A stretch of DNA of 64,000 nt from Meridianimarinicoccus roseus (GTDB lineage Bacteria; Pseudomonadota; Alphaproteobacteria; Rhodobacterales; Rhodobacteraceae), in the NCBI RefSeq assembly GCF_003172915.1, contig NZ_QGKU01000015.1, positions 62,001-126,000 of the forward strand, written 5' to 3'. This document shows positions 8,288 to 54,407 of this stretch, one piece after another. The position numbers and the translations under genes were made by a program. Below the pieces are notes generated by a model. That model saw nothing but the letters and a program-made list of their open reading frames with translations, was not told the DNA's origin and searched no databases. How positions within the stretch are numbered: position 1 is the stretch's first letter; every line of letters starts with the position of its first letter.

Positions 8288-9415
8288 ATGGCGATGAGCG
8301 CTGGGCGGTACGGTGAGAGGAACGTGGACGGTGGCGGGACGACCGCCGCGGCTGATGTGCGTGACCTTGTCGTGATCCTCGACGGGACGCTGGGCCGCCG
8401 GGCGCCGGGCCGGATGACCCATGCCGGGCGGATCGCGCGGCTGCTTGAGGATGGCGGCCTGCGGCGGGCCGAGGTGTTCTATGAAGAGGGCGGCCAGTGG
8501 CAGGGCTGGCGCGACATGGGCCCGGTCATGACCGGGCGCGGGATCAACCGGCAGATCCGCCGCGCCTATGGCTTTCTCGCGGCCCGCTACCGGCCCGGCG
8601 ACCGGGTGTTCCTGCTGGGCTATTCGCGCGGGGCCTACGCGGTGCGCAGCCTTGCGGGGCTGATCGACCGGATAGGCCTGCTGCGCCCGCGCTGCGCGAC
8701 GGTTCCGATGATCGAGCAGCTTTACAGGCTTTACATGCTGGACCCGCACGGGCCCCATGCGCGGGCCTTCGCGCGGCGCTTCTGCGTGCCCGAGGCCGAG
8801 ATCGCCGCTGTGGGTGTCTTCGACACGGTGAAAGCGCTGGGCGTGCGGCTTCCGGTCCTGGCGGGGATCACCGAAAAGGCCCATGCCTTCCATTCGCATC
8901 ACCTGGGCGCGCGGGTGCGGCACGGCTTTCACGCGCTGGCGCTGGACGAGACGCGTGTCGCCTTTGCCCCGGTGATGTGGGCGTGCCCGCCGGGCTGGCC
9001 GGGGCACGTGGAACAGGTGTGGTTCCGCGGCACCCATGCCGATGTGGGCGGCCAGCTGGGCGGCCGGGAAACGGCGCGCCCGCTGGCGAACATCCCGTTG
9101 GTCTGGATGCTGTGTCGGCTGGAAGGCTGTGGGCTGCCGCTTGCGCCGGGCTGGCGGACCGGGCTGCCCTGCGATGCGTCAGCGCCAAGTTCGGGCGCGT
9201 GGCGCGGCTGGGGCAAGCTGTTCGCGCTGCGGCGGCGGCGCGCGGTCGGGCTGGACCCGTCCGAGCGGCTCCATGCCAGTGCGCAGGGACATCGCCGTGC
9301 CGGGCGGCAGGGCCTGCCGGTGACCGGCGCTGCACCCGGCGGGCTCGCGCCCGATTTCGCGCCCGGCCTGCCTGATCTGCCCGGCCCGTCAGCCCCACGC
9401 CTGCCACAGGGTTAA
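8288..9415 (+). CDS. DUF2235 alpha/beta-hydrolase-like protein (Tle1-related fold)
   Basis: A 375-residue protein. It begins with a conserved strand (DLVVILDGTLGRR) and carries the Ser-hydrolase elbow LLGYSRGAYAVRS near residue 112, the acidic motif GVFDTVKALG near 178 and a His motif RGTHADVGG near 248. These are the Ser-Asp-His landmarks of DUF2235, which includes type VI phospholipase effectors (Tle1) and many plain cytoplasmic homologues. No secretion signal and no type VI genes are nearby, so an effector role is not supported. The frame is open from 8156, but the ATG at 8288 is preferred because GGGAGG lies 7-8 bases before it. The C-terminus is Pro/Gly-rich and probably disordered. Confidence 0.8.
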   Translation: MAMSAGRYGERNVDGGGTTAAADVRDLVVILDGTLGRRAPGRMTHAGRIARLLEDGGLRRAEVFYEEGGQWQGWRDMGPVMTGRGINRQIRRAYGFLAARYRPGDRVFLLGYSRGAYAVRSLAGLIDRIGLLRPRCATVPMIEQLYRLYMLDPHGPHARAFARRFCVPEAEIAAVGVFDTVKALGVRLPVLAGITEKAHAFHSHHLGARVRHGFHALALDETRVAFAPVMWACPPGWPGHVEQVWFRGTHADVGGQLGGRETARPLANIPLVWMLCRLEGCGLPLAPGWRTGLPCDASAPSSGAWRGWGKLFALRRRRAVGLDPSERLHASAQGHRRAGRQGLPVTGAAPGGLAPDFAPGLPDLPGPSAPRLPQG

Positions 9416-9427
9416 CCAAAGGTTAAC
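9411..9427 (+). promoter_or_regulatory. Candidate CtrA box upstream of VPLPA-CTERM gene 1
   Basis: GTTAACC-AAA-GGTTAAC is a perfect 7-bp inverted repeat with a 3-bp centre and fits the CtrA consensus TTAA-N7-TTAAC exactly. It lies 58 bp before the start codon of the VPLPA-CTERM gene and overlaps the stop region of the DUF2235 gene. A near copy (15 of 17 bases) sits upstream of the second VPLPA-CTERM gene at 53339-53355. Confidence 0.6.
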
Positions 9428-9484: not shown

Positions 9485-10303
9485 ATGGCACGGGCGGACG
9501 AGACATCTGGTACACGTGGGCGCATCGGCGCGGCGGCAGCGGGACTGGCGCTGCTGCTGGCAGCGGGCGCGGCGCAGGCCGGGGTGGTCGAACTGATCAC
9601 GAACGGCGATTTCGAGACCGGTGATTTCACCGGCTGGAGCACGGCGAAGACGCCCGGATCGGCCGGCGATTTCCTGATCGTGCCAATCTCGCCCACGGGC
9701 ACGCCGTCACCGGTAAATGCGTTTCCGGTGCCGGGGAATCCCGCGGGCGGCAGTTTCGCCGCCATGAGCGAGCAGACCGGCCCGAACGCGGTCGCGCTGA
9801 CTCAGGTCTTCACGGTGCCGCTCGCAACGGTGAAGCTGGAACTGTCCTTCTCGAACTTCATCGACGATTATTCCGGCGCGTCGCCTGTGGGCCCGGCCTT
9901 TCCGGGCATCCCGGGCCAGTTGGGGCCGGGACTGGACGAAACGCCGACTTCGTCGACGCAGTTCGTGCTGTTCGACATCCTGACAGCCGGGGCCGACGCG
10001 CTGATGCCGCTGCCCGGCGACGTGGTGACGAGCATAACGAACCCGTTCCCGGCACCGGCCTTCGCGGCAGGGTCCAACCCCTGGCTGCCGAGCGGCGTTT
10101 TCGATCTGACCGGCGCGTTGGCCCCCGGCGGCACCTACCAGTTGCGCTTCGGCGAGGTGGACAATTCCGGCAACCTTCTGGCCGGGCTCGACAACGTGTC
10201 GCTTGTCGCCACGACCGCGCCCGTGCCCCTGCCGCCCGCGCTGCCGCTGCTGGCGGCGGGCGTGGTCGGGCTGGGCCTGTTGCGGCGCCATCGTCGCGGC
10301 TGA
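9485..10303 (+). CDS. VPLPA-CTERM sorting-domain surface protein (1)
   Basis: A 272-residue exported protein. An N-terminal signal peptide (basic start, then IGAAAAGLALLLAAGAAQAG) is followed by TNGDFETGDFTGWST, the entry of a carbohydrate-binding-like beta-sandwich common in sorted surface proteins. The C-terminus is APVPLPPALPLLAAGVVGLG followed by LLRRHRRG: the VPLPA-type motif, a transmembrane helix and an Arg-rich tail. In this family an exosortase-like enzyme processes the tail and the protein becomes associated with the envelope or extracellular polymer. No exosortase gene is in the window. The function of the mature domain is unknown. A CtrA-like box lies upstream and a strong terminator downstream. 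Confidence 0.85.
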   Translation: MARADETSGTRGRIGAAAAGLALLLAAGAAQAGVVELITNGDFETGDFTGWSTAKTPGSAGDFLIVPISPTGTPSPVNAFPVPGNPAGGSFAAMSEQTGPNAVALTQVFTVPLATVKLELSFSNFIDDYSGASPVGPAFPGIPGQLGPGLDETPTSSTQFVLFDILTAGADALMPLPGDVVTSITNPFPAPAFAAGSNPWLPSGVFDLTGALAPGGTYQLRFGEVDNSGNLLAGLDNVSLVATTAPVPLPPALPLLAAGVVGLGLLRRHRRG

Positions 10304-51886: not shown

Positions 51887-52636
51887 ATGTCAGCCCATCC
51901 CCTCCGCCTAGGCGTGAACATCGACCACGTCGCCACCGTGCGCAACGCGCGCGGCAGTGCCTATCCCGACCCGCTGCGCGCCGCGCTGCTGGCCGAAGCC
52001 GCCGGCGCCGACGGGATAACCGCCCATCTGCGCGAGGACCGGCGCCACATCACCGATGCGGATATAGAGGCGCTGTCGGCCGGATTGTCGGTGCCGCTGA
52101 ATTTCGAGATGGCGGCAACCGATGAAATGCAGGCGATCGCGCTGCGCCATCGTCCCCATGCCGTGTGCATCGTGCCCGAGAAGCGCGAGGAGCGCACGAC
52201 GGAAGGCGGTCTGGAGGTCGCCCGCGAGGAAAACCGGCTGGCCCATTTCATCGCGCCTCTGCGCGAGGCGGGCTGCCGGGTGTCGATCTTCATTGCCGCC
52301 GATCAACGCCAGATCGAAGCCGCGCACCGGATCGGCGCGCCGGTAATCGAACTGCACACCGGCGCCTATTGTGACCTCCATGCCGAAGGCCGTCACGCCG
52401 AACGCGATGTCGAACTGGCGCGGTTGGCCGAGATGGCCGCCTTCGCCCACGACCTCGGGCTGGAAGTCCATGCCGGCCACGGGCTGACCTACGACACGGT
52501 GGCGCCTGTGGCCGCGTTTCCGCAGGTGCGGGAGTTGAACATCGGACATTTCCTGATCGGAGAGGCGATATTCACCGGTCTGGAGACCGCCATCGGCGAA
52601 ATGCGTGCCCGGATGGACGCCGCCCGCGCGCCGTGA
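51887..52636 (+). CDS. pdxJ: Pyridoxine 5'-phosphate synthase
   Basis: A 249-residue TIM-barrel enzyme that forms pyridoxine 5'-phosphate in the DXP-dependent B6 pathway. Signatures are [16 protein letters not shown] near residue 7 (His 14), [12 protein letters not shown] near 44, [10 protein letters not shown] near 70 (Glu), [14 protein letters not shown] near 95 and [10 protein letters not shown] near 192 (His). AAAGGA precedes the ATG. In relatives acpS and lepB often follow; here the next gene is the convergent VPLPA-CTERM gene 2. Confidence 0.96.
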
Positions 52637-52639
52637 TCG

Positions 52640-53260
52640 TCAGCGGGTGTGACGCCGCGCGCGGCTTGCGCCCAGCAGGCCAATCGTGCTGCCAAGAAGG
52701 AAGATTCCTGCGGGCAGAGGCACCGTGCCGGGCTGTGGTGCGTCGGAGGTGACCGCGCCGAACACGATGTCGCGCAGCCCGCACCTAAGGTCGAAATTGA
52801 AATCGCAGGTGAAGACAACCGACCCGATGGCAGCGGTCGTGGTGATGCCGCCGAAGACCAGCGATGGCCCGAACCCGGCGCTGCCAAGAAGGCTGCCGGA
52901 CCCGTCTGGGCCGGAATAAATCAGGATGCGGCCGCCATCGACCGGATTGGTCTGCACCCCGACGCCGTTCACCGGGTCGCTGAAGGTCAGCCCGACATGC
53001 GGGGTGGCCGACCCGAAGAACCCTGCGCCGTTGAGAATAAGATCGTCGCTGCGTACGCTGGAGAGGGCGCCGAAGAAGGTTGCACCCGGTGTGGCGGCAC
53101 TGATGTCGGCGGTGGTCTGACCGATGAAGGTCGAGGTGTCGATCAGGGTGTACCCCGGATCAAGCGCTGCAGTGAAGGTTGCGCGGTCGGTGAAAGTGGT
53201 GGCCCCGGCCGGAGCGACAGCCCCGAGCAGGGTCGCAAGCGTCAACAGATTACGGATCAA
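52640..53260 (-). CDS. VPLPA-CTERM sorting-domain surface protein (2)
   Basis: A 206-residue exported protein. The best start is TTG at 53260, with GGGGAGGA 7 bases before it; it gives the signal peptide IRNLLTLATLLGAVAPAGA. The mature part is Gly/Thr/Ser-rich with beta-strand character and one Cys pair (TCDFNFDLRCG). The C-terminus GTVPLPAGIFLLGSTIGLLG followed by ASRARRHTR is an exact VPLPA-CTERM tail: motif, helix, basic end. An exosortase-like enzyme elsewhere should process it. Its function is unknown. A CtrA-like box lies 79 bp upstream and nearly matches that of VPLPA-CTERM gene 1. Confidence 0.82.
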   Translation of the reverse strand: MIRNLLTLATLLGAVAPAGATTFTDRATFTAALDPGYTLIDTSTFIGQTTADISAATPGATFFGALSSVRSDDLILNGAGFFGSATPHVGLTFSDPVNGVGVQTNPVDGGRILIYSGPDGSGSLLGSAGFGPSLVFGGITTTAAIGSVVFTCDFNFDLRCGLRDIVFGAVTSDAPQPGTVPLPAGIFLLGSTIGLLGASRARRHTR

Positions 53261-53338
53261 CGGTCGTCCTCCCCTCAATGGCGATATCGGTGAGTGTCGC
53301 GCAAACATGACCCAAGGGCAAGCTGTGGCAGGGTAAAA

Positions 53339-53355
53339 GTTAAGCAATGGTTAAC
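53339..53355 (-). promoter_or_regulatory. Candidate CtrA box upstream of VPLPA-CTERM gene 2
   Basis: GTTAAGC-AAT-GGTTAAC fits TTAA-N7-TTAAC and matches the box at 9411-9427 in 15 of 17 positions. It lies 79 bp before the TTG start codon of the leftward gene. The xerC stop is about 130 bp away on the other side, and xerC reads towards the box, so VPLPA-CTERM gene 2 is the only plausible target. Confidence 0.6.
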
Positions 53356-53486: not shown

Positions 53487-54407
53487 TCAGGCGCGCGGGT
53501 GGGCGGCGCGGTAGACTGCCATCAGCCGCGCCGCGTCGACCGAGGTATAGGCCTCGGTCGTGGCAAGGCTGGCATGGCCCAACAGCTCCTGGATCGTGCG
53601 CAGGTCGCCGCCCCGGTTCAGCAGGTGCGTGGCGAAGGAGTGGCGCAGCGCGTGCGGCGTCGCCGTGGCCGGCAGGCCAAGTTGCATGCGCGCCGCGCGC
53701 ATCGCCTTCTGCACCAGCGACTGCGACAGCGCGCCGCCGCGCACGCCCCGGAACAGCGGCCCGTCCGGGTTCAGATCGTGCGGGCAGGCTCGGCGATACG
53801 CCTCCACCGCTTCGACGGCGGCGGGTAGCACGGGTACCATGCGCTGCTTGCCGCCCTTGCCGGTGATGCGCAGCATTTCGGGCAGCGGCGCGTCGCGCCC
53901 GGTCAGCGACAGCGCCTCGGAGATGCGCAGCCCGCAGCCGTAAAGCAGCGTCACCACCGCCGTGTCGCGCGCCGCGACCCAAGGCTCCATCGACTGCAGG
54001 TCCACCTGTGCGATGACCGCGCGCGCCGCGTCCTCGTCCAACGGACGGGGCAGCTTGCGCCGGAAGCGAGGTGCGCGGGTGGACAGGACCGGGGTTGCGT
54101 CGAACTCCTCGCGGTCGGCCCACCAGCGATAGAAGCTCTTGACCGCGGACAGCCCGCGGGCCAGCGACCGCGCCGACCGGCCGCGCGCGCGTTCCGACGC
54201 CATCCAGGCGCGCATCTCGCCCAGGCCCAACCCGCGCAGCGCCGCCGGATCCGCCGCGCCGCCGAGGTGCCGGCCCATGAAGGAAAGGAACCCGGCCACA
54301 TCCGCGCGGTAGGCGGTGATGGTCGAGGGCGCGGCGTCGTCCAGCGCTGCCAGCGCCGTCAGCCAGTCCGCCAGCCGGTCCGACATGGCCGGGGCGATCA
54401 GGCTCAT
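53487..54407 (-). CDS. xerC: Tyrosine recombinase XerC
   Basis: A 306-residue site-specific recombinase. The N-terminal SAM-like domain covers about 1-100 (STITAYRADVAGFLSFM). Catalytic residues are visible: Arg in YGCGLRISEALSL, Lys in ITGKGGKQRMVPV, His-X-X-Arg in PHALRHSFATHLLNRGG, His in LLGHASLATTEAY and the nucleophile Tyr in TEAYTSVD. It resolves chromosome dimers at dif with XerD. The start overlaps the DUF484 stop by 4 bases. The DUF484-xerC pairing is common in proteobacteria, so the assignment as XerC rather than an integrase is firm. Confidence 0.93.
   Translation of the reverse strand: MSLIAPAMSDRLADWLTALAALDDAAPSTITAYRADVAGFLSFMGRHLGGAADPAALRGLGLGEMRAWMASERARGRSARSLARGLSAVKSFYRWWADREEFDATPVLSTRAPRFRRKLPRPLDEDAARAVIAQVDLQSMEPWVAARDTAVVTLLYGCGLRISEALSLTGRDAPLPEMLRITGKGGKQRMVPVLPAAVEAVEAYRRACPHDLNPDGPLFRGVRGGALSQSLVQKAMRAARMQLGLPATATPHALRHSFATHLLNRGGDLRTIQELLGHASLATTEAYTSVDAARLMAVYRAAHPRA

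Follow-up and report, generated by a model that had tools for sequence, protein, structure and literature searches.

A predicted CtrA-type box upstream of a VPLPA-CTERM gene and a half-site motif shared by this gene set in Meridianimarinicoccus

Two VPLPA-CTERM-like genes in a 64,000-nucleotide stretch of the Meridianimarinicoccus roseus genome (positions 62,001 to 126,000 of contig NZ_QGKU01000015.1; hereafter, the window) are each preceded by a 17-base sequence that resembles a CtrA binding site. This raises the question of whether the second of these sequences (site 2) is a genuine regulatory element, whether it serves a regulator that sorted surface proteins have in common, and whether that regulator could be CtrA. 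Site 2 and its surroundings comprise the following features.

53339..53355, minus strand: box (site 2), GTTAACCATTGCTTAAC in gene direction and GTTAAGCAATGGTTAAC on the plus strand; a full TTAA-N7-TTAAC together with a TTAACCAT variant
53268..53274, minus strand: Shine-Dalgarno sequence GGGGAGG before the TTG start of gene 2, read from the sequence
52640..53260, minus strand: VPLPA-CTERM gene (gene 2), 206 aa, with a signal-peptide-like start and a TTG start codon
52649..52723, minus strand: VPLPA-CTERM sorting tail of gene 2, VPLPAGIFLLGSTIGLLGASRARRHTR; 24.9 bits, or 25.5 with neighbours (cut-off 25.35)
53487..54407, minus strand: xerC-like tyrosine recombinase gene upstream of gene 2 (TIGR02224, 307 bits, cut-off 335)
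51887..52636, plus strand: pdxJ-like gene, convergent with gene 2, named by eye

Site 2 contains an exact TTAA-N7-TTAA at positions 53340-53354, flanked by a C on the strand of the gene and on the opposite strand, in agreement with the CtrA operator consensus; the sequence TTAACCAT is given as an ungapped variant of the CtrA motif in an excerpt of PMC6180460. In 100 shuffles of the window, no match was obtained either to the 17-mer with up to 3 mismatches or to TTAA-N7-TTAA, and the box is confirmed as real and beyond chance. The likely start of gene 2 is the TTG at 53258-53260, located behind the Shine-Dalgarno sequence, and the distance from site 2 to the gene is therefore 78 bases. The original prediction had correctly placed the box upstream of this gene, at a distance that it gave as 79 bp.

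The second window site and its gene are as follows.

9411..9427, plus strand: site 1, GTTAACCAAAGGTTAAC, with a 5-base overlap with the end of the gene upstream
9485..10303, plus strand: VPLPA-CTERM-like gene behind site 1 (gene 1), 272 aa; 17.2 bits, under the cut-off

The VPLPA-CTERM label of the two window genes is borderline. Scored against the TIGR03370 model (cut-off 25.35), the gene 2 protein reached 22.7 bits alone and 25.5 bits only together with its neighbours in frame, and the gene 1 protein gave no match at E 0.001 and 17.2 bits in the genome scan described below. A VPLP tail, a hydrophobic stretch and a basic end can be made out in both proteins, and the gene 2 protein begins with a signal-peptide-like stretch, as judged by hydropathy and by eye. 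Agreement between the two sites had been put at 15 of 17 bases, which holds when both are read on the plus strand; the two genes are encoded on different strands, and comparison in each gene's own direction (GTTAACCATTGCTTAAC versus GTTAACCAAAGGTTAAC) gives 14 of 17. That the genes are otherwise unlike was borne out, as their proteins showed no significant similarity (best E 0.55) and are unrelated outside the tails. No ortholog of gene 1 was found in six other genomes of the host genus.

Upstream regions of the VPLPA-CTERM set of the host genome were also analysed. A scan with TIGR03370 returned 56 matches at E <=1, 27 of them above the cut-off; one more VPLPA-CTERM gene lies at C50:12687. 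The genome total is put at about 50, and a single exosortase D is encoded (TIGR04152, 661 bits, cut-off 400). Genes were called with a small custom script and not a standard program, and starts were chosen by a custom score for a hydrophobic N-terminus and a Shine-Dalgarno sequence. Nine of the 56 matches, which had no believable start, were left out, and the remaining 47 upstream regions were compared with those of 104 control genes from ten regions. Seven of these ten regions had been fetched for their full boxes, and the choice of controls therefore works against the finding. The half-site TTAAC/GTTAA was present between -160 and -15 in 32 of 47 VPLPA-CTERM upstream regions versus 11 of 104 controls (Fisher's exact test, p = 1.6e-12), and the hexamer GTTAAC in 23 of 47 versus 4 of 104. 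The half-site was absent from 15 of the 47 regions, or about one third.

A de novo motif search with a custom script recovered GTTAACcTTt with a weak second half. Half-sites kept a promoter-like position, as 123 of 160 occurrences begin between 120 and 21 bases upstream of the start codon. Of the 25 genomic occurrences of AGGTTAAC, eight lie 17-74 bases before VPLPA-CTERM genes and one lies 57 bases upstream of ctrA. We regard a shared promoter motif of the VPLPA-CTERM genes as near certain. As a separate observation, AAAGGTTAACCT is found at C42:89505-89514, upstream of a called frame of 134 aa, with a VPLPA-like tail in a different short frame some 700 bases beyond it; this gene looks broken or wrongly called.

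Could the enrichment reflect base composition or chance? Upstream regions of VPLPA-CTERM genes do have a lower G+C content than those of other genes (57% versus 64%). However, shuffles that preserved dinucleotide frequencies (n = 300) placed GTTAAC in 1.4 regions, with a maximum of 5, against the 23 of 47 observed, which made it the most enriched hexamer, while TTAAT and TTAAG stayed at the shuffle level and TTAAA fell below it. An origin in low G+C or chance is scarcely credible given these numbers, and chance and base composition were rejected as the source of the motif on the basis of the window shuffles and the dinucleotide shuffles.

The half-site count was extended to five genomes of the same genus (G002-G006). 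TIGR03370 gave 119 matches in these genomes at E 0.002; part of these were fetched, and 68 genes with the tail pattern were used, while G001, with 12 matches, was left out of the count. Half-sites preceded 41 of 68 VPLPA-CTERM genes versus 18 of 213 others, with p <0.02 in each genome, and plain gene-caller starts gave 31 of 68 versus 18 of 213. The proposal that sorted surface proteins have a common regulator is supported by the difference seen in the host (32/47 versus 11/104) and by its repetition in the five relatives. In four genomes of other genera the corresponding counts were 10 of 27 versus 15 of 86 (p 0.06), and one of these genomes, G013, gave 4 of 9 versus 3 of 33 when taken alone (p 0.03). 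The link between half-site and gene family may be lineage-specific, or too weak to be seen in a four-genome sample of other genera.

The full box TTAA-N7-TTAAC is found at nine places across the 4.29 Mb and 69 contigs of the genome, three of which lie directly before VPLPA-CTERM genes: site 1, site 2 and C39:12395, the last centred 28 bases before the gene start. The probability of three such placements by chance is about 4e-4 if 10% of the genome is taken to be intergenic, and 4e-7 over the whole genome. The other six boxes are located 44 bases before a kinase gene, whose best family matches are to CckA, under their cut-offs; 178 bases before an autoinducer-binding LuxR gene; 61 bases before a ribosome hibernation factor gene; 33 bases before a gene for an ExeM/NucH-like extracellular nuclease of 1746 aa that has a 5′-nucleotidase domain (L070:7440-12680, C27); in the interval that a monooxygenase-like gene shares with a divergent gene; and at C47:33271-33287, in the interval between dnaA and rpsT (rpsT read by eye). 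Corresponding full boxes were found in relatives for three of these six, with eight of 30 relative loci inspected. G005 has boxes at the corresponding places of the dnaA-rpsT interval and the monooxygenase pair, and G006 has one in the luxR neighbourhood, where luxR itself was not called by the custom gene caller. The dnaA-rpsT box, with its counterpart at this position in G005, may be relevant to replication control.

Spacings of 3 to 13 between the two halves were compared genome-wide, and the 14 places obtained comprised nine N7, two N4, two N12 and one N9, a preference of exact boxes for N7 that is predicted by the CtrA consensus. In the spacing scan a reversed-pattern control gave 44 matches versus 20 for the pattern itself; this control has little meaning because AATT is not TTAA, and the distribution of spacings was therefore used instead of the total. 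Across 31 genomes, several other genera had as many matches to the reversed control as to the box. The distribution in relatives covers G001, G003, G005 and G006. N7 was the commonest spacing in the first three, which together account for 23 N7 boxes among 86 places, and ranked second in G006 with 10 of 39 places, behind N8 with 12, nine of which are copies of one sequence. The nine copies of this sequence, TTAACGACGTCGTTAAC, are spread over different contigs of G006 and probably represent a repeated element.

Is the box retained when the gene is found elsewhere? The xerC and pdxJ-like genes are directly adjacent in Phycocomes zhengii, separated by 95 bases, and gene 2 with its box therefore has the appearance of a single insertion in the window, judging from gene order. 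Among the six other genomes of the genus, a single ortholog of gene 2 was identified, in G001 (51% identity; the genome is 74% complete), where it sits between other neighbours. The sequence GTTAACCTTGACCTTAGGTTAAC, 46-68 bases before the start of this ortholog, holds an N7 box with one mismatch, and a further GTTAA lies at 80. Absence of the box from orthologous promoters had been named at the outset as an observation that would count against the prediction; at the sole ortholog found, the box, with one mismatch, and further half-sites are present.

An apparent insertion, together with an ortholog that carries the motif at a different location, might also be expected if GTTAAC were a border or integration mark that travels with mobile VPLPA-CTERM genes and has no operator function. 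The promoter-like position of the half-sites argues against this, as does the presence of the motif before ctrA and other genes outside the family, and we consider an integration mark very improbable.

Is CtrA, a phosphorelay protein that controls motility, the cell cycle and quorum sensing, the regulator that recognizes this motif? The host genome encodes CtrA (NF045991, 425 bits, cut-off 350), the only one of 38 matches to this family that exceeds the cut-off; the others are related response regulators. Its promoter contains AGTAACCGAAGGTTAAC, which agrees with site 1 at 14 of 17 bases, and a second GTTAAC 36 bases before the start. Boxes precede ctrA, the CckA-like kinase gene, luxR and the fliF/fliL pair, two of them exact and two with one mismatch. 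The one-mismatch box in the divergent fliF-fliL interval on C33 is CTTAACAATCGGTTAGC (fliF identified by family match, fliL by eye), and it resembles the arrangement of the fliF2/fliL2 promoters of R. sphaeroides, which are CtrA-controlled according to an excerpt of PMC6180460. A second flagellar cluster on C27 has no box at its fliF, so that of the two fliF genes only the C33 copy has a CtrA-type box. For D. shibae, an excerpt of PMC4046655 likewise reports predicted CtrA sites upstream of ctrA, cckA and luxR2, and a CtrA site of the form TTAA-N7-TTAAC was derived from ChIP-seq in Hyphomonas (PMC7200025, excerpt). Quorum sensing in Cereibacter is the subject of a further paper (PMC11655674).

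The boxes found here are like the known CtrA site of Caulobacter, Hyphomonas and Dinoroseobacter, as far as it is described in excerpts of PMC6180460, PMC7200025 and PMC4046655, in sequence, in spacing, in position before genes and in their presence before ctrA, the CckA-like kinase gene, luxR and fliF/fliL. They differ in that the targets in the host are VPLPA-CTERM surface protein genes, mostly with half-sites, at which CtrA binding is a prediction. Because the genome encodes CtrA and boxes precede these four loci, CtrA is the best candidate, and a likely one, for the regulator of the VPLPA-CTERM set.

The architecture of the VPLPA-CTERM promoters bears on how far this assignment can be taken. 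Exact N7 boxes are present in 3 of 47 upstream regions in the host and 1 of 68 in the relatives (4 of 115 together), and when one mismatch was allowed in the 115 regions, N7 (23 boxes) was closely followed by N6 (22) and N3 (20). When VPLPA-CTERM promoters were examined for a second half spaced at N7 after TTAACC, the signal did not reach significance (p 0.055, and 0.28 when the exact boxes were removed). Strand preference of the half-site was weak over all VPLPA-CTERM genes (41 TTAACC versus 21 GGTTAA, p 0.015) and absent in the host genome (15 versus 14), and no clear -10 element at a fixed distance was seen by eye or by column information. CtrA is not certain as the regulator because most of these promoters have a half-site only and the signal for a second half loses significance once the exact boxes are left out. 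Among the VPLPA-CTERM genes a half-site in place of the full box is the rule, about a third have neither form, and the link is not clear outside the genus.

The dominance of half-sites and the lack of a significant second half would also fit another regulator, OmpR-family or dedicated, that recognizes a single GTTAACC(A/T)T site, with the full boxes as its double sites, and the further CtrA-related response regulators of the genome would offer candidates. However, the same motif and flank are found before ctrA, full or near-full boxes lie at the CckA-like kinase gene, luxR and fliF/fliL, and half-sites have been described for CtrA as well (PMC6180460, excerpt). On balance, a different regulator appears rather unlikely, and we consider it probable that site 2 is a two-half-site CtrA-type operator, among the strongest members of a genus-wide set of VPLPA-CTERM promoters with TTAACC/GTTAAC half-sites.

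If CtrA is the regulator, its phosphorylated form would bind the half-sites or full sites of VPLPA-CTERM genes, usually located 20 to 120 bases upstream of the start, and would switch this set of surface proteins together with motility and quorum-sensing genes. An excerpt of PMC6180460 describes activation by CtrA when its site is near -35 and repression when it is over -10; the same rule would presumably set the sign of regulation here, and both outcomes are possible given the range of half-site positions. The VPLPA-CTERM proteins are presumed substrates of exosortase D, which would sort them. The exosortase D gene itself has no promoter-near site, only a TTAAC about 168 bases upstream. We give roughly even weight for and against a broader model for the host genus, in which CtrA would govern much of a surface proteome of about 50 proteins sorted by exosortase D. 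Each gene would carry its own half-site or full site and retain it after relocation, which would bring a newly acquired surface protein into the regulon upon its arrival.

In the open-licence literature we found neither a link between CtrA and exosortase-sorted proteins nor a description of how such surface proteins are controlled in Rhodobacterales. Because two thirds of about 50 VPLPA-CTERM genes have a promoter element in common, their regulation can be tested, and if CtrA is the regulator, the surface coat, motility and quorum sensing would depend on one switch. Genes for exosortase-sorted proteins are likewise under regulated promoters in Aquincola, where an excerpt of PMC9850573 describes PEP-CTERM genes that depend on RpoN; a different factor, a sigma factor, is named there, and the de novo motif of the host is GTTAACC. 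The size of the gene set differs among relatives, with about 50 VPLPA-CTERM genes in the 4.3 Mb host genome versus 10 to 40 matches in G001-G006 at a stricter threshold.
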